Shown piece after piece: positions 2,141 to 18,861 of a DNA stretch of 21,652 nucleotides. Below the pieces are notes generated by a model. The model saw only the letters and a list, made by a program, of their open reading frames with translations. It was not told where the DNA came from and searched no databases. A program made the position numbers and the translations under genes. This stretch comes from a virus, in the IMG/VR virus record IMGVR_UViG_3300006754_007271, positions 1 to 21,652 of that record. One strand, given 5' to 3'. The first letter of the stretch is position 1, and each line of letters begins with the position of its first letter.

Positions 2141-2789
2141 ATTTATCCTTTTGTATCGTTAAAATTTTGACTGGTATTTTATCTATGTCTAAAAATTGAC
2201 AAATTGTCAACCTGTGCAGCCCGTTGTTCTGTAGAAAAGTTCTATCTCTCCCGATAGAAACATTAATAGGTCCAAAGTTCATTGGGTTTGAGGAGGCTAA
2301 GTTTATTTCGTCTGTTTCGGGGTCGGGGGGGGCGTTTAGGTAGCCAATATTTTTAATCGATTCATATAAATCCATAAAGCCATAAACTTTTAGGGCAATA
2401 AACTCTTCGAACCCTAAGCAATCAGCAGTGCCCCAGCGAGAAGACATTTGTCGCTTTCTTATTTTTGGCGGCGTTTCATTGAAGTTCCGGTTGGCGGTTT
2501 TATTGAACCCCATGTCGAATTCGAACTTGTAAAGTGGGTGATTTTTAATGAATTCTTCACTTACTTTATTTAATTCCTTAAGGTCTCTTAAAAAATGCAT
2601 CAAACTCTGATAGTAATCATTATCCTCAAGGAGGTGGCCTTCTTCAGTCCACCATGCAGGTGCCACACGGCTTGGGCATCCTGCAATACCGGCTGGGCAT
2701 ATCTCGCTTCGCACAAAACTTTTGTAGTCTTCTGATGGGAGATACTTTACCTCTTTTGGGTTTATGTCTATGAAGAAAATTTTACTCAT
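2097..2789 (-). CDS. Protein with ParB/sulfiredoxin-like C-terminal motif
   Basis: A 230-residue protein of uncertain function. Its C-terminal third contains VSIGRDRTFL followed by NGLHRLTICQFL and IDKIPVKIL (about 177-213). This resembles the IGRDG...DGxHRLxxAxxLG...IPVxV signature of ParB/sulfiredoxin-like domains that are often found in polysaccharide-biosynthesis loci. The N-terminal part has no motif I recognise. It contains a CPAGIAGCPSR segment with two Cys, followed by two Trp. It overlaps the upstream unknown gene by 8 bases and the downstream methyltransferase by 44 bases. A nucleotide-binding or kinase-like role fits the fold class but is not shown. Confidence 0.55.
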   Translation of the reverse strand: MSKIFFIDINPKEVKYLPSEDYKSFVRSEICPAGIAGCPSRVAPAWWTEEGHLLEDNDYYQSLMHFLRDLKELNKVSEEFIKNHPLYKFEFDMGFNKTANRNFNETPPKIRKRQMSSRWGTADCLGFEEFIALKVYGFMDLYESIKNIGYLNAPPDPETDEINLASSNPMNFGPINVSIGRDRTFLQNNGLHRLTICQFLDIDKIPVKILTIQKDKYDRERLHITECPIP

Positions 2790-4089
2790 AAGCTTTAAAA
2801 AATTTTAAAAATATTTGTTTGAAGTGTTCCTTACTGGATGTCTTATCAAGGTAGTCAATCACCTTGCTATAGTATTCTTTATTTGAAAGAGTCCCCTTCG
2901 GGTCAATTTGAAAGTCGTTAAAAAATTGCTTTTCATTGTTCGCGCAATAAATTGCTTCGTTCTTATAGAGACTTTGCGCGGGCCTTTTTAAAAACTCGTC
3001 GCCGCCGCTTTGATGTATTTGCCTGTACCAATGTTGATGCTCTGCATATATTATATTCACGGGCAAGAGATAGAGAAAGCTGGAGGCTCCTGCTTGAGAC
3101 ACATATCCCCAATTATTTTTTAAAGAAAGCAAAATTTGTATAGTGGATAAAGAATTTGCATATTCTTTTCGGTACTTCTCCCTTTGATTTAAGTAATCCT
3201 GAAGGGGCCAAGAGAAACTGCTCCTCGAGCAAAATACCTTATAATTAAAATTAAATATATTTTCGTGACCGATTTCTTCCCCTGTTTCGTATAATGCATC
3301 GCCGATATTCTTTGCAGCGGCCCATTCCATACCACTCCGATTGTAGCACGCGCCTGAGGCGGGGTTATAATATTTGCCGTCTATGTTGTTTTCCGCGCGG
3401 GCTCTGCCGCTTCTTAGGTAGGAGCATATTTTAGGCGAGTCATCAATGTCTAAGTCATTAACAAGATTTTCGTATGAAAGCATTTGATTTTTTGTAAAGA
3501 AAATATTATACTCACTGAGTCTTTTCTCGTAGAAATTTGTTATAGTTTTTTCGTTAAAAGTATGTAATTGTTTCAGGTAGCTATAAACATTGGGCGCGTC
3601 ATGTTTTGCTATTTCTCCCTCGAGTATTTGCGTAAGTAGGTCTGCGTCTTTTTTTCTTATGAGGTTCAGCAACAGGTAGTGCGGGTTGCCTATTTCTTTA
3701 GCATATGCTCCCCATAGTAAATCCCACCCAATATCTCCCCTGTCATACACGTGGTTGTAGCATTTTGTAGAGTGCTTATCAAAGTATTTAATTTTTTCTT
3801 CCGCCTCAGATCGACTCGTAGAACTAGCTACAGAATCCTTATTAATACAAATCAATGAATGAGAATAAAAGCTAAAAAGTGGTATGTGATCTTCTACGGC
3901 CAAAACCGAAACCTTTATATTGAACTTATCACAAATAGCAAAAATAGGAATAAGCATGTGCCATTTTTTTATTTCACCAAACCAAGGGCATATTATAATT
4001 TCGTCATCAAATTTTCTGTCAGGACAGAACTCATAAACGTCATGCCCTTTATTGTTTCGATATGAAGGCTCTATGGTTTTTATGTTCAT
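2782..4089 (-). CDS. Unknown protein, possibly GT-B-like
   Basis: A 435-residue protein with no motif that fixes its function. The N-terminus (residues 28-66) alternates hydrophobic strands and helices: IIICPWFGEIKKW, MLIPIFAIC, KVSVLAV. That resembles the first Rossmann half of a GT-B glycosyltransferase. Near residue 325 the segment NNWGYVSQAGASSFLYL resembles the sugar-nucleotide-binding loop of GT9-like enzymes (small residues before a helix), but no conserved catalytic residue can be assigned. There is no signal peptide or membrane segment. Its ATG overlaps the radical SAM stop (ATGA), so the two are translationally coupled. It is a real gene by length and packing, and the function is a guess. 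Confidence 0.6.
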   Translation of the reverse strand: MNIKTIEPSYRNNKGHDVYEFCPDRKFDDEIIICPWFGEIKKWHMLIPIFAICDKFNIKVSVLAVEDHIPLFSFYSHSLICINKDSVASSTSRSEAEEKIKYFDKHSTKCYNHVYDRGDIGWDLLWGAYAKEIGNPHYLLLNLIRKKDADLLTQILEGEIAKHDAPNVYSYLKQLHTFNEKTITNFYEKRLSEYNIFFTKNQMLSYENLVNDLDIDDSPKICSYLRSGRARAENNIDGKYYNPASGACYNRSGMEWAAAKNIGDALYETGEEIGHENIFNFNYKVFCSRSSFSWPLQDYLNQREKYRKEYANSLSTIQILLSLKNNWGYVSQAGASSFLYLLPVNIIYAEHQHWYRQIHQSGGDEFLKRPAQSLYKNEAIYCANNEKQFFNDFQIDPKGTLSNKEYYSKVIDYLDKTSSKEHFKQIFLKFFKAYE

Positions 4090-5348
4090 CGGGCGTCTAT
4101 ATGATTTTTGTACTCCGTTACGTTACCCATGTCTACTATAGGGTTATTAAGAATTGGGTTTCTTAGAACTTCTAGAAACTCTTCAAATTCTGGGTGGTCC
4201 TTTTTCCATATGCAGCTAAAGTCATACTCTTCTTTTGTAAAGGTTCCCCAATCTGCAATTAAAGAAAAATAAGCACCGTCAGCATTAAATTTCTTTGCTA
4301 TCTCTACAAAGTCTGGCATCTCTTTATAATTTAGTTGTTGAACTACAAAGTCCAACCTGAGTTGATTAATTTTGTTTTCCTTCTTAAGCCCCGATATAAA
4401 TGAGAGATTTCTCATAAGCGCTGACCAATTACCTCCGCGACGCGTTATGTTATATGTTTCTTCCTGACCAGAGTCTAGTGAAATTATTACAGTATTTAGA
4501 TTCTTGTGTATCTTCTCCATTTTCTGCCAATAGAGCTCCGTAAACATTACGCCATTGGTTTGTAGATTTATCGAGACATTCGGGCAAAGGTCTCCGTCTA
4601 TATTGAACAGTAACTCTCTAAAAATTAGTGAGCCAAATGGATCACCAGAGCCAGTTATATTAACGACACAGTTTCTATTGTGCGGGGCTAGGAACAGGTC
4701 TTTAATTATTTTTTCTTGAATTAGGGTCTTCCTCTCAAACCTAGGGCCTGAATTTACGAAAACTTTATTCAAGCGACAGCTTGGGCAGCTTAAATTGCAG
4801 GACTCATCGTAACACAGGTTGTGAAAGGTTGGATTCAACCCCTCTACAATATTGTTTTTTATTATCCCCTTATACCTCTCCTCTGCAACATTTTGGCTTT
4901 CCCACCCTAGATTATCCTTCTCTAGTATATCTTTTTTGTTTGGCAACGTGCCGCCCTGTATGTGGGGGCAAAGTTTGTGATGGCAGAACTTAAACGAACC
5001 ATCTAATATACTTTCCCTAACCGCTTTAGCTGGTTCGGAGTTGAAGACTTCATCCACGTCTTCCGACAGTAGGCTCCCGATGTTGATTGGCAACCAAGTG
5101 GGGCAACATAGAAATCCACCGTGTTCGTGAGATTCTAGGGAGTCGAATGGTTTCGGGCAGAACTTTCCTGTTAAATCCTTCCTTCGATTTAAAATCCCCC
5201 CAGCTTCCCTCTGGCCTTCTTCGTCTAGATTGAATTTGCGTACCACCCTTGGCTTTGCTGGGGTGGTTTGAATTCTAGATCTGTTGTGTTTTTTTTTATT
5301 AGGTCTTCTCGGAAGGTATCGCTCACTGAGCCAAACACGGCTAAACAA
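4086..5348 (-). CDS. Radical SAM protein with N-terminal SPASM-like Cys cluster
   Basis: Radical SAM enzyme. The [4Fe-4S] motif CNLSCPSC (Cys184, 188, 191 counted from the TTG at 5348) is followed by the GSGDPFGS segment, the counterpart of the GGE/SAM-binding strand, and LQTNGVMF and VIISLDSG strands typical of the TIM-barrel core. Before the core lies a second Cys set (Cys64, Cys81-Cys82, Cys122, Cys127) spaced like a SPASM auxiliary-cluster domain, which normally sits C-terminal. The start is uncertain. The open frame begins at TTG 5348, inside the preceding gene. GTG at 5246 is an alternative, and no ATG precedes the first Cys. It may also be made by a -1 frameshift from the upstream gene. 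The SPASM type suggests peptide, protein or sugar modification. Confidence 0.8.
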   Translation of the reverse strand: MFSRVWLSERYLPRRPNKKKHNRSRIQTTPAKPRVVRKFNLDEEGQREAGGILNRRKDLTGKFCPKPFDSLESHEHGGFLCCPTWLPINIGSLLSEDVDEVFNSEPAKAVRESILDGSFKFCHHKLCPHIQGGTLPNKKDILEKDNLGWESQNVAEERYKGIIKNNIVEGLNPTFHNLCYDESCNLSCPSCRLNKVFVNSGPRFERKTLIQEKIIKDLFLAPHNRNCVVNITGSGDPFGSLIFRELLFNIDGDLCPNVSINLQTNGVMFTELYWQKMEKIHKNLNTVIISLDSGQEETYNITRRGGNWSALMRNLSFISGLKKENKINQLRLDFVVQQLNYKEMPDFVEIAKKFNADGAYFSLIADWGTFTKEEYDFSCIWKKDHPEFEEFLEVLRNPILNNPIVDMGNVTEYKNHIDAR

Positions 5349-5911
5349 TTTTCATCACCAGATTCACTTATGATTTTCTTGGCGGCAAAAGCATCTTCCA
5401 CCCACTCTCCATCAACTTTATACTTGTATTCGTACTCACCTTTTGGCAGGATAACTCTCTTAAACCATAAGGTACTATCGACTTTGTCCATCCTTATTGG
5501 GTTATCTTCCCAATTTGTGAAGTCTCCTACGATTAGAACATTTCTAGCGGTATCGTTTTCGTAATAAAATTCTACAAGCGGGTCTTTTTCTCTACCTTCT
5601 TTATCCCAAGAATTCGCCAATACCATCTTGCCTTCCTTGTACAAAGCTTTCGTTCTTATTTGGGAATCGCTGTTCCAAAAGGTCGCAAGGCCGTCCCTTA
5701 GGCCATTTGAAAAATTAACTTCAGATTTTTTATTGCCATTGTCGTACCAAGAAACGGTAACTCCGTCTATTTTACCTCCATTGAAGCGAGTCTTGCTGTC
5801 TTCTTGTCCATTGGGGTAATGTTGAATAATTTCCCCTGTATATGGAGTATCGTCGTCTACCCTGTACCAGAGGTTATTTCTTGTATTGTACTTTAAATTT
5901 ACAGCATCCAT
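5225..5911 (-). CDS. MORN-like repeat plus CBM48/AMPK-beta glycan-binding protein
   Basis: A 228-residue two-part protein. Residues 22-107 hold three to four MORN_2/YwqK-like repeats of the pattern YxNGxxxxxxxFxxGxxDG (for example YPNG, WYDNGNKKSEVNFSNG). Residues 114-180 match the AMPK-beta/isoamylase-type carbohydrate-binding module CBM48, with the signature residues NVLIVGDFTNW, LPKGEYEYKYKVDGEW and a following Asp. Such modules bind alpha-glucans such as glycogen. The start is ATG at 5911, the first Met. The gene heads the overlapping cluster that includes radical SAM and methyltransferase, and its last 124 bases overlap the radical SAM frame. Near the end, Lys206-Lys207-Asn208 are encoded by a slippery A-run. 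The domain calls are good, the biological role unknown. Confidence 0.75.
   Translation of the reverse strand: MDAVNLKYNTRNNLWYRVDDDTPYTGEIIQHYPNGQEDSKTRFNGGKIDGVTVSWYDNGNKKSEVNFSNGLRDGLATFWNSDSQIRTKALYKEGKMVLANSWDKEGREKDPLVEFYYENDTARNVLIVGDFTNWEDNPIRMDKVDSTLWFKRVILPKGEYEYKYKVDGEWVEDAFAAKKIISESGDENCLAVFGSVSDTFREDLIKKNTTDLEFKPPQQSQGWYANSI
5242..5267 (-). other. Hairpin downstream of the slippery site
   Basis: ACCACCC (5242-5248) and GGGTGGT (5261-5267) form a perfect 7-bp GC-rich stem with a 12-base loop inside the overlap of the CBM48 and radical SAM genes. It could stimulate frameshifting or mask the GTG candidate start at 5246, which lies in the stem. Confidence 0.4.
5288..5294 (-). promoter_or_regulatory. 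Candidate -1 ribosomal frameshift site A_AAA_AAC
   Basis: On the minus strand the CBM48-protein frame reads ATA AAA AAA AAC, which contains the slippery heptamer A AAA AAC in phase. A -1 slip continues directly into the radical SAM frame. A 7-bp hairpin (5242-5248 with 5261-5267) lies downstream, but about 20 bases away, longer than the usual 5-9. A homopolymer length error is the main alternative. Confidence 0.4.
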
Positions 5912-5956
5912 TGCTACATCGATCTAACTATACCATGACTTAATTATCTTGCGCAA

Positions 5957-6235
5957 CTAAAAAACACAAAAAATATTTCCATCAGCAGCCAACTTAACTT
6001 CCCCAACCCCCAAGAACGCCTTTAGGAAAGCCTTGTCTGTAGCGGTTAAGTTCGCGCACATTTGCAAGTACATATTTTTGCACTGTTCTATCCTTCGGTT
6101 TCTGTTGCACCCACATCCGCCGCCTAGTCCAGAAACCATATTTCTGAAGTGGGAAACGTGTTCATTATACACGGGCGTTTTCCCAGCATTCTCAAGAACG
6201 TGGTAGAATTCAGTAAAATCTTTAACCTCTTTCAT
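5957..6235 (-). CDS. Small Cys-rich protein of unknown function
   Basis: A 92-residue protein that I do not recognise. It has a GLGGGCGCNRNRR loop (Cys41, Cys43) and further Cys at 52, 60 and 90. The CxC-x8-C spacing could bind a metal, but no known family pattern is complete. Predicted helices flank the Gly/Cys-rich loop. There is no signal peptide or membrane segment. The ATG at 6235 lies one base after the stop of the membrane-protein gene, so the two are translationally coupled and may work together. A 45-base gap separates it from the CBM48 gene. Confidence 0.6.
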   Translation of the reverse strand: MKEVKDFTEFYHVLENAGKTPVYNEHVSHFRNMVSGLGGGCGCNRNRRIEQCKNMYLQMCANLTATDKAFLKAFLGVGEVKLAADGNIFCVF

Positions 6236-6236
6236 G

Positions 6237-6584
6237 TCAAGCCATTAATTTTGAAACCCCAAAGTATAAAACTATACTACAGATTGTTATCGGTGAGAAG
6301 TGCAGATGTCCAAAAAAAAGAGACGAAATTATTGCGCCCCATATTATTAAACATATTGGGCAAGTAATCAATTTGACAAAGAAAGATTCCTTGTATTCTT
6401 TAAGTAAGAAGGTATGGTAATCCAAAGTAAAATCATTGTTATATTCTTCGTCGTATTTATCTATTTTAAATATTTTAGTGAGCCCAAATAGGCGAGAGTA
6501 TTCAAGGAATGCATCAGTCTTAAACCACACAATTAGAACCACGTTAATAAATAGAACTAAATGTAAAACAATTTCAAAACTCAT
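6237..6584 (-). CDS. Small membrane protein with CPIC motif (DUF1360-like)
   Basis: A 115-residue protein with one N-terminal transmembrane helix (about 4-21), a polar central region (about 25-68) and two C-terminal hydrophobic segments (about 72-91 and 95-112). TCPICLIIWG at 74-83 recalls the CPFCLGxW motif of the DUF1360 membrane family, which occurs in phages and Gram-positive bacteria. That link is tentative. The ATG at 6584 has TAAGG four bases upstream. The gene follows the 460-base non-coding stretch and is coupled to the Cys-rich gene downstream. A role in the host membrane is likely, but nothing points to lysis. Confidence 0.6.
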   Translation of the reverse strand: MSFEIVLHLVLFINVVLIVWFKTDAFLEYSRLFGLTKIFKIDKYDEEYNNDFTLDYHTFLLKEYKESFFVKLITCPICLIIWGAIISSLFFGHLHFSPITICSIVLYFGVSKLMA

Positions 6585-6670
6585 GGTACCTTAGATATTA
6601 ATTCAGTAAATTTTATTTAAATTTTATTAATCAAAATGTCGTATGCTTCCTTTCGGGAAATAAAGACAGA

Positions 6671-6688
6671 ACCCCCTAGAGAGGGGGT
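6671..6688. other. Strong GC hairpin, possible minus-strand terminator
   Basis: A perfect 7-bp stem (ACCCCCT/AGGGGGT) with an AGAG loop. On the minus strand it is followed by a moderately T-rich stretch (6658-6670), so it could end transcription after dUTPase. It could instead be one stem of a larger RNA. Confidence 0.35.
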
Positions 6689-6867
6689 CCTGCATTTAGA
6701 TTATGTCTTAGCTTCCTTTACGGGCCCGAGTTTTGTTGACACTGACGGGACATTCAGCAGACACATACAGCTTAGTTTACAACTAAAAACCACCTCCCTT
6801 TAAAAGGGTGAGAAACTGTGCTTTAAAACTCATTACAGTGGTCAACCACAACACGCCGGGGCATTGC

Positions 6868-6892
6868 GGTGGGAATTACCCACCAGTTTTTT
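6868..6892 (+). terminator. Terminator-like hairpin on the plus strand in the gene-free region
   Basis: GGTGGG and CCCACC form a 6-bp GC-rich stem with a 5-base loop, followed after AG by TTTTTT (6887-6892). On the plus strand this has the form of an intrinsic terminator, although all neighbouring genes run on the minus strand. It could end an antisense or small RNA. The stem is short. Confidence 0.35.
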
Positions 6893-13316: not shown

Positions 13317-15785
13317 ATGAGTTCACAAGTTATCCACGTTAAAAAAAGAAACGGACGCCTTCAAGAATTAGACATCAATAAAATTAATCTTTGCGCCGAG
13401 AGAGCCTGTCAAAACCTAGAGGGGGTGTCCCCTAGCGAAACAGTTCTAGATGCCCATGTTCAACTGTACGAAAAAATCACAACCAAAGAAATAGATAAAG
13501 CTCTCATCATGTCTGCTCGTGCCAAAATTGAGAAGGAGCCGAACTACTCATTTGTAGCCGCCAGACTTCTTTGCGGAAACATACATAAAGAAGTTTTTGG
13601 AATTAGTGTAGATAAAGACGCCTTTGACCACCAGTACAGACTCTCCTTTATCAGAAACATAAAATCCCTAGTGAAACAGGGACTCTTAAATGAAAGAATC
13701 TTAGAATATGATTTGAAAAAATTATCTGAATCTTTAGTATTGGAGCGAGACTTTAAATTTAAATATTTAGGCTTGCAGACGTTGTACGACAGGTATTTTC
13801 ACCATATAGATTCAAGGAGATTAGAATCTCCGCAATCATTTTGGATGAGGGTAGCTATGGGCTTGGCGCTCAATGAAAAAAACAAAGAAAAAAAAGCAAT
13901 TGAATTTTACGAATCAATTAGTACTTTCAGGATTTGCCCCTCAACCCCGACGCTTTTTAATAGCGGTGGCGCTAGGTCTCAGCTTTCTTCTTGTTACCTT
14001 AATACTTTCGAAGATTCTATAGACGGAATATTCGAAGGGGCTTGGCAAGAAGCTAGAAAATCTAAATTTGCAGGAGGACTAGGGTTTGACGTTAATAATT
14101 TTCGTTCATCAGGCTCTTACATCAAGGGCACAAACGGAACCTCTAGTGGTCTCGTCCCTTGGCTTAAAATTTTCAATGACCTTCTCGTTGCGGTCAATCA
14201 GGGGGGCAAAAGGCCGGGGGCAGGGTGTGCCTATATCGAAACTTGGCATTTAGATATCGAGGAATTTTTAAATCTTAAAAAGAATACTGGAGATGAACGT
14301 CGACGTTGTCACGATTTAAATACAGCCAATTGGATACCAGATCTTTTCTTTAAAAAAATTCAACAAGACAAAGACTGGTATTTGTTTTCTCCAAGCGACG
14401 TAGGAGACCTTCACGAACACTTCGGAAAAGAATTCGATAAGAGGTATTCTCATTATTGTAAAATGGCAGATAATGGAGAGATAGATAATTACAAAACTAT
14501 TAAAGCTAAAGACCTGTGGAAGAAAATGTTAAGGATGCTTTTTGAAACCGGTCACCCTTGGATTACATTTAAAGATAGTGCAAACATTAGATATTCTAAT
14601 TCCCACGAAGGGGTAGTTCATAGTTCTAATTTGTGTACAGAAATTTTCTTACATACTAAACCATCTCAATTTAAATCTGGGGAAAAAACAGAAGTGGGCG
14701 AGACCGCTGTTTGTAATCTAAGTTCGGTCAACCTAAAGGAACACCTGAAAGCAAACGGAAAAATTGACTTTAAATTACTCGCAAAAAGTATATCCACCCA
14801 AATGCGAATGCTGGACAATGTAATTGATTTGAATTTTTACCCCACTAAAGAGGCGGAGAAAGCGAACCTACTTCATCGTCCTGTCGGCGCTGGCACTATG
14901 GGTTGGGCTGACGTTTTTCATTCTTATAAAGTAGATTTCTCTTCTGAAGAAGCAACTAAATTTTCTGATGAGTTATATGAATTTATTTCTTACCACTGCA
15001 TATTGAACTCTTCTCGCCTCTCCAGAGAAAAGGGCAAGTATAATACTTATGATGGTTCCCTATGGGACCAAGATATCCTACCGATGGATACCTATAAAAA
15101 TTTAATGGAATACCTAGAGGAAAAACCCATCCTCCATAGAGGAAAAAAGTTTTGCCCAGAGGTTGATTGGAAGGAGCTCCGTCAGCATATAGCAGAATTT
15201 GGGATGAGAAACAGCAACACTATGGCGATTGCCCCGACAGCGACGATCTCCTACATCCAAGGCTGCTCCCCCTGTATAGAGCCAGATTTTTCTGTCCTTT
15301 TTGTTTACGAAAATAAGTCTGGGAACTTGCTCATTATGAATGAGTGGTTTGTAAAAGAGTGCAAGGAACTAGGTATATGGAGCGCGTCCTTTATGGAGAT
15401 GGTTAAGAGCGTGGACGGTGATGTTATGAGGCTTAACGGAGAACTTCCTATGGAACTCAAAGAGCGTTATAGAACCGTGTTTGATCACGACCAGTTTAAA
15501 CTCATTGATAATGCCGCAGCTAGACAAAAATGGATTGATATGGGTCAATCATTAAATTTATTTAATAATTTTAATTCTTTAAAGTATTTGAATGATTTAT
15601 ATTTTCATGCTAGGAGTAGAGGACTCAAAAGTACATACTACTTAAGGAATAAGAGTGCAAGCGAAACGGAGAAAGCTACGGACAGTGGTAACGACAGTGA
15701 TATTAGTGCAAGTGATAGTGATAATACTGAGTCTACTCCTGAGGCTTGTAACATAACAGACCCAACATGCGAGAGTTGCCAATGA
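13317..15785 (+). CDS. nrdA: Ribonucleoside-diphosphate reductase, alpha (large) subunit, class I
   Basis: An 822-residue catalytic subunit of aerobic RNR, reducing NDPs to dNDPs. Residues 4-95 are an ATP-cone (allosteric activity site; VKKRNGRLQEL). Catalytic residues align with E. coli NrdA: redox Cys226 (SSCYL), Asn438-x-Cys440-x-Glu442 in the NLCTEI motif with the thiyl Cys440, and Cys466. The radical-transfer Tyr774-Tyr775 lie in TYYLRN. A Ser/Asp-rich flexible tail ends with the CESC redox pair (Cys818, Cys821) that shuttles electrons from thioredoxin or glutaredoxin. Length is within the class I range and I see no intein. The ATG at 13317 precedes the ATP-cone directly. Partner of NrdB, 40 bases downstream. 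Confidence 0.96.
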   Translation: MSSQVIHVKKRNGRLQELDINKINLCAERACQNLEGVSPSETVLDAHVQLYEKITTKEIDKALIMSARAKIEKEPNYSFVAARLLCGNIHKEVFGISVDKDAFDHQYRLSFIRNIKSLVKQGLLNERILEYDLKKLSESLVLERDFKFKYLGLQTLYDRYFHHIDSRRLESPQSFWMRVAMGLALNEKNKEKKAIEFYESISTFRICPSTPTLFNSGGARSQLSSCYLNTFEDSIDGIFEGAWQEARKSKFAGGLGFDVNNFRSSGSYIKGTNGTSSGLVPWLKIFNDLLVAVNQGGKRPGAGCAYIETWHLDIEEFLNLKKNTGDERRRCHDLNTANWIPDLFFKKIQQDKDWYLFSPSDVGDLHEHFGKEFDKRYSHYCKMADNGEIDNYKTIKAKDLWKKMLRMLFETGHPWITFKDSANIRYSNSHEGVVHSSNLCTEIFLHTKPSQFKSGEKTEVGETAVCNLSSVNLKEHLKANGKIDFKLLAKSISTQMRMLDNVIDLNFYPTKEAEKANLLHRPVGAGTMGWADVFHSYKVDFSSEEATKFSDELYEFISYHCILNSSRLSREKGKYNTYDGSLWDQDILPMDTYKNLMEYLEEKPILHRGKKFCPEVDWKELRQHIAEFGMRNSNTMAIAPTATISYIQGCSPCIEPDFSVLFVYENKSGNLLIMNEWFVKECKELGIWSASFMEMVKSVDGDVMRLNGELPMELKERYRTVFDHDQFKLIDNAAARQKWIDMGQSLNLFNNFNSLKYLNDLYFHARSRGLKSTYYLRNKSASETEKATDSGNDSDISASDSDNTESTPEACNITDPTCESCQ

Positions 15786-18114: not shown

Positions 18115-18861
18115 ATGAAAATAGGAATACTAGGATGTTTTTACGATTGCGCCGAAGACATCGACGAAGTTCTCCAGCCTTGGGGCAAGCTCAAAAACGA
18201 ATCCGAACACGAAGTAATTATTACCTCCGTTCACTCCCAGTTTAAGGAGTACGCACAGATGGGGATGCCGGATTTCGATGGCGTTACCGCCGCCAAAGTG
18301 GCAGACAATAAAAATGTTGACTTGCCCTTCACCTCGATGGTTCCACTTACAGAAGCAGAAGCCAGAAGCCTACCACTTGGTTATCTCCTCCAGCAGGAAG
18401 TGGACATGTTCTGGATGCTCGACGGAGATGAATTTTATACCTATGAAGATATTAATTCAATTTTAAATTATGTAATAGAAAACCCAGATTATTATTATTA
18501 CAAAATTAATTTTAAGAATTATATATTTGACGGCGAGAAATGGATAGACGGTTTCTGTCCGAATAGAATTTTTTGGACGAACAAAGAAGAAAAGGTGAGC
18601 AAGTTCTACTATGATAATGATATTCTTTATGAGAGTGGGAAAAGGCAGCCCGACTTGTCCTGTTCTGAAATCCCAAGAGAAATCGCCCACATCAGACACA
18701 TGACGTGGCTGCACTCCAACGGGGAAAAAAAAGTCAAGTACCAAGAAAAGCACTTCGGCGAGTGCTCTTATTTATGGAATAGAGACACTTCCGAATTAGA
18801 ATTTAATTCAAGCTATTACAAAAAGCACAATAAAGAAGCCCCCGTAGTCAATGAAGATTAA
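18115..18861 (+). CDS. GT2-like (GT-A fold) glycosyltransferase
   Basis: A 248-residue protein beginning MKIGILGCFYDCAEDIDEVL, like GT2-type enzymes that start with a strand and a turn facing the nucleotide. The metal-binding DxD motif is Asp103-Gly-Asp105 in FWMLDGDEFY. The helical region after it (EDINSILNYV) and the aromatic C-terminal half (DYYYYKINFKNYIF) fit small single-domain transferases. ATG at 18115 comes one base after the previous stop, with no clear ribosome-binding site, so it is probably coupled. It overlaps the next gene by 11 bases. Confidence 0.65.
   Translation: MKIGILGCFYDCAEDIDEVLQPWGKLKNESEHEVIITSVHSQFKEYAQMGMPDFDGVTAAKVADNKNVDLPFTSMVPLTEAEARSLPLGYLLQQEVDMFWMLDGDEFYTYEDINSILNYVIENPDYYYYKINFKNYIFDGEKWIDGFCPNRIFWTNKEEKVSKFYYDNDILYESGKRQPDLSCSEIPREIAHIRHMTWLHSNGEKKVKYQEKHFGECSYLWNRDTSELEFNSSYYKKHNKEAPVVNED

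Follow-up and report, generated by a model that had tools for sequence, protein, structure and literature searches.

Ribosomal frameshift sites of the IS1 and IS3 families place an A-rich heptamer, A_AAA_AAN, in the overlap of two ORFs that lie in the −1 register, with a stem or pseudoknot a few nucleotides downstream and ahead of the zero-frame stop. One such heptamer, A_AAA_AAC, slips poorly in E. coli and yet serves IS elements (PMC4066793). Overlapping unidirectional genes of the ordinary kind are likewise co-directed, with the downstream start inside the upstream gene; their commonest overlaps are 4, 1, and 8 nt long, efficient termination-reinitiation requires very short overlaps, and long overlaps usually come without coupling (PMC10666635). 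Among predicted frame transitions, isolated cases are likely errors or mutations, or likely false positives if each of the two parts has homologues of its own (PMC3711429).

The locus described here shares properties with each of these systems. It lies in a 21,652-base virus record of ~40% G+C, analysed over its whole length and referred to below as the window, and in it a gene for a protein with MORN-like repeats and a glycogen-binding module overlaps a radical SAM gene (Table 1). Like the IS1/IS3-family sites it has an ORF overlap in the −1 register, an A-rich heptamer, and, as a prediction, a stem a few nucleotides downstream, before the zero-frame stop; unlike them, its genes are not a transposase pair and its stem encloses a possible start codon. 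As in ordinary overlapping pairs, several of which occur in the window (other overlaps are 44, 34, 26, and 25 nt long), the genes are co-directed and a downstream start lies inside the upstream gene, although the 22-nt overlap that results from the start favoured here is longer than the commonest lengths. We consider ordinary overlapping genes that encode two separate proteins to be somewhat more likely than a frameshift fusion, and put the chance that this reading is correct at about even.

Table 1. Features of the overlap and of the two genes that form it (window coordinates)
Feature	Coordinates	Strand	Details
MORN_2-repeat and CBM48/AMPK-type glycogen-binding protein	5225-5911	−	228 aa; ATG 5911, TAG 5227-5225
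Radical SAM ORF, full open frame	4086-5348	−	420 aa, from TTG 5348
Radical SAM protein, favoured start GTG 5246	4086-5246	−	386 aa; N-terminal SPASM/twitch-like Cys cluster
Stop-free upstream extension of the radical SAM frame	5246-5348	−	TTG 5348 to GTG 5246
A9 run, A_AAA_AAA and A_AAA_AAC in phase	5289-5297	−	possible ribosomal or RNA-polymerase slip site
Predicted imperfect stem-loop	5227-5282	−	fold −15.1 kcal/mol, z −4.6

The A9 run and the stem-loop

The first-pass annotation had reported a 124-nt overlap of the two ORFs in the −1 register, a radical SAM frame with no ATG ahead of its first cysteine, and an in-phase A_AAA_AAC within the zero-frame codons ATA AAA AAA AAC, from which a −1 slip leads into the radical SAM frame. 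We confirmed all of this. The usual start codons ahead of the first cysteine are TTG 5348 and GTG 5246 only, and ATT 5273 is the sole rare one. Both A_AAA_AAA (5297-5291) and A_AAA_AAC (5294-5288) are in zero-frame phase, and the overlap therefore holds X_XXY_YYZ heptamers from which the downstream frame can be reached. Stop-free −1-frame stretches of 34-37 codons have a frequency of only 4-6%.

The heptamer alone is unremarkable, since 67 in-phase slippery heptamers are found in the 20.6 kb of window coding sequence, or ~0.4 per 124 nt. The A9 run is rarer: it is the sole sense-strand A run of at least nine within that sequence, where runs of at least eight number seven (0.042 per 124 nt). 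The stem at the A9 site ranks first among those at the 67 in-phase heptamers (z about −4.5), and of 1,958 coding windows scanned, three at other loci have z ≤ −4 and six have z ≤ −3.5, so that comparable stems exist but are rare. All of these chance rates are understated because the site had been picked out by the first-pass annotation.

A 7-bp hairpin had been placed about 20 bases downstream of the heptamer. The hairpin itself, ACCACCC (5267-5261) paired with GGGTGGT (5248-5242), is real, but the short-range fold adds two weaker outer helices, GAAUU/AAUUC (5275-5271/5236-5232) and AGAU/AUCU (5282-5279/5230-5227), and in this predicted fold the extended stem thus starts at 5282, 5 nt past the heptamer; a stimulatory structure would be expected ~5-9 nt away. 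The 3′ end of the stem-loop is the stop codon of the upstream gene, and the entire GTG 5246 codon sits in the 3′ arm of the hairpin. In a 99-nt context the extended stem is out-competed by a longer-range fold (pairing probability ~0.12), whereas in a 301-nt context its probability is near 1. It fits start control at GTG 5246 and slippage stimulation equally well; because the hairpin encloses this codon, the stem cannot tell recoding from a coupled start, and only the A9 run can. An Rfam search gave no match. The loop of the hairpin (CAGC) might pair with a GCTG further downstream in a 4-bp pseudoknot (5260-5190, minus strand), which resembles the loop-loop stimulators of IS3-type elements and is too short to weigh.

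In coding composition, the CBM frame ahead of the A9 run scores +0.16 per codon, which is coding-like, and the radical SAM frame −0.35, which is non-coding-like; past the run the values are −0.04 and −0.03, respectively, with a weak coding signal and a high alternative-frame signal in both. A GTG 5246 start and a shift at A9 are both compatible with this composition.

The two proteins and their relatives

The upstream protein is assigned to the CBM48/AMPK1_CBM type by Pfam families PF16561 (1.4e-9, score 38.5 against a gathering cut-off of 26.8) and PF02922 (1.4e-5, 25.7 against 22.4), and its sequence matches in the PDB are AMPK beta subunits, the CBM48 of pullulanase, and glucan phosphatases. 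The CBM48 domain is preceded by MORN-like repeats, for which the MORN_2 match (2.8e-5) is below the cut-off. Close relatives of this protein were not found in viral contigs with six octapeptide patterns, and none of the 30 loci retrieved with the pattern VGDFTNW has a significant CBM match; a general CBM48 motif search returned one locus, L049, with a small stand-alone CBM48 protein. Phage records gave no match by tblastn with the CBM or the radical SAM protein or by blastn with the module, and the CBM protein was not found in six bacterial genomes with the radical SAM gene that were searched.

The downstream protein belongs to the radical SAM superfamily (PF04055, 4.5e-10, 40.4 bits against a gathering cut-off of 29.5), and the cysteines of its core motif, CNLSCPSC, are invariant across seven homologues. 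The NCBIfam model N_Twi_rSAM (NF033640), for radical SAM proteins whose N-terminal domain is twitch/SPASM-like, has the same order of a Cys cluster followed by the radical SAM core, and matches the window protein (5.4e-15, 55.4 bits) as well as L001 (2.6e-19) and L050 (1.2e-21), all at 55-77 bits, where the curated cut-off is 170 bits. On these scores the three proteins are best seen as relatives of the N_Twi_rSAM subfamily and not as members of it.

The closest phage homologues, L001 (3974-5119) and L033 (3956-5104), are 60% and 57% identical to the window protein, and each is a complete stand-alone radical SAM protein with an ATG start. They align with the window protein from its third to eighth residue past GTG 5246 onwards, the shared N-terminal motif GxRE..ILN..KxL..xFC is wholly downstream of this codon, and the additional 7-8 N-terminal residues of L001 and L033 are not conserved. 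As judged from these alignments, a start at GTG 5246 would yield a full-length homologue shorter than L001 and L033 by only those 7-8 unconserved residues. The viral homologues L044-L048 also stand alone with an ATG start, and at 24 bacterial homologue loci most proteins start 0-43 aa ahead of the first cysteine; N-terminal extensions of other kinds are present in L056, L058, L061, and L063. No CBM match was found in the L001 or L033 record, nor by tblastn with the CBM protein at any of the bacterial loci, and a CBM48 or MORN domain is attached to none of the radical SAM homologues examined. The stand-alone relatives indicate that the enzyme needs no CBM partner. In a Bdellovibrio MAG (L061:1597-4110) the family member is the C-terminal part of an 837-aa frame, with an apparent second radical SAM domain before it.

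Separate genes or a fusion protein

Separate genes are favoured because L001 and L033 make the same radical SAM protein alone, without a CBM gene. The MORN/CBM48 gene would be read through to its TAG, and the radical SAM enzyme would start independently at GTG 5246, within the upstream gene. The surrounding hairpin probably closes this start until ribosomes that translate the upstream gene unfold the stem, a form of translational coupling, and the A9 run would be incidental or would give rise to low-level slippage only. A plain GTG 5246 start agrees with the homology and with what is usual in this genome: many window starts are without a Shine-Dalgarno sequence (137-1081, 2097-2789, 2782-4089, and 18115-18861 are examples), the frequent lack of which may tell something about the host. 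Counting against this start are its position inside a stable hairpin and the absence of a usable Shine-Dalgarno sequence, its AAGG directly abutting the start codon, and the preference of termination-reinitiation for very short overlaps (PMC10666635) is a weak point of the coupling model. Two findings stand against separate genes in general: the only sense A9 run coincides, within one overlap and at the correct spacing, with a stem that is among the strongest local ones, and past A9 the CBM frame scores no higher for coding than the radical SAM frame.

Recoding at A9 would be either a −1 ribosomal slip on A_AAA_AAA or A_AAA_AAC, assisted by the stem-loop, or RNA-polymerase slippage that adds an A; the product would be a MORN-CBM48-radical SAM fusion made alongside the plain CBM protein. 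We regard programmed recoding as unlikely, but as the most serious of the alternatives. In its favour are the in-phase heptamer with its 5-nt spacer and top-ranked stem, a downstream frame that has neither an ATG nor a Shine-Dalgarno sequence, a CBM frame that is coding-like until A9 and ambiguous afterwards, and the existence of other N-terminal extensions in some members of the radical SAM family. IS1-type elements use the same A_AAA_AAC, although it is inefficient, and its poor slippage in E. coli also weighs on the other side (PMC4066793). Moreover, there is no sign upstream of a Shine-Dalgarno-like stimulator, other parts of the window have stems with a comparable z, the stem here has a longer-range competitor, and the close relatives stand alone. 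The anatomy of the fusion site proposed in the first-pass annotation is present, whereas the fusion itself is not established. The related phages with both domains in one frame that were suggested as a check did not appear among the homologues examined, and homologues with separate genes and a clear ATG, named there as evidence against the fusion, were found in half measure, in the stand-alone proteins of L001 and L033. Searches of viral contigs and phage records turned up no relative that carries both the CBM and the radical SAM gene.

A more specific version, to which we assign a low probability, is that the A9 run and the stem-loop set the fraction of fusion protein made, and that free enzyme comes from GTG 5246 under the control of this stem as well. 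If true, the fusion would tether the radical SAM enzyme to a glycan target such as a glucan. Programmed fusion is usually met in transposase, tail-assembly, and dnaX genes; real recoding here would add a cargo gene to these, and would connect a glycan-binding module with a radical SAM family that is uncharacterised. A full-text literature search gave no paper on phage radical SAM enzymes recoded in this manner. If there is no recoding, the site shows that a frameshift signal can be mimicked jointly by an overlap, a run of A, and a hairpin at a start site.

It is considerably less probable that an indel in the A run has disrupted a fused CBM-radical SAM gene, whether through an assembly or sequencing error or through a real mutation. 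The homopolymer divides the overlap roughly in half and is flanked by short stop-free stretches, as expected for one frame split in two, and isolated frame transitions are treated as likely errors or mutations (PMC3711429). However, other A8/T8 runs leave the coding ORFs of the window intact, including the long ribonucleotide reductase-like ORF 13317-15785, and our searches gave no fused homologue. A search for near-identical junctions with other A-run lengths, among records from which those close to the window may be missing, gave none.

A radical SAM start elsewhere in the overlap is very improbable, since TTG 5348, which follows GGTGATGAAAA and whose upstream GGTGAT is acceptably spaced for pairing with the 16S 3′ end, is disfavoured by the non-coding-like composition of its frame as far as A9, and ATT 5273 lies ~37 aa ahead of the first cysteine, near the 36 of relatives, but is of a codon type at which initiation is very weak (PMC10666635).

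Gene neighbourhood

The window shares with L001 and L033 genes for a dUTPase, a UDP-sugar dehydrogenase-like protein, a deaminase, a kinase-like protein, and a sigma factor, of which the dehydrogenase was identified by Pfam, the sigma factor by PHROGs, and the others by sequence similarity. The location of the radical SAM gene differs: in L001 and L033 it comes directly after the sigma-factor gene, which it overlaps by ATGA, and in the window it lies past the dUTPase gene and on the other strand, as part of a cassette that also includes the CBM48 gene, two genes of unknown function, and a methyltransferase gene. Downstream of the radical SAM gene, the products of 2782-4089 (435 aa) and 2097-2789 (230 aa) have no match in Pfam, PHROGs, or NCBIfam, and no relative of the 2782-4089 gene was found in viral contigs. 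In L001 two cytidylyltransferase-like genes are found past the radical SAM gene (5082-8577), a pair that suggests an island for surface-sugar synthesis.
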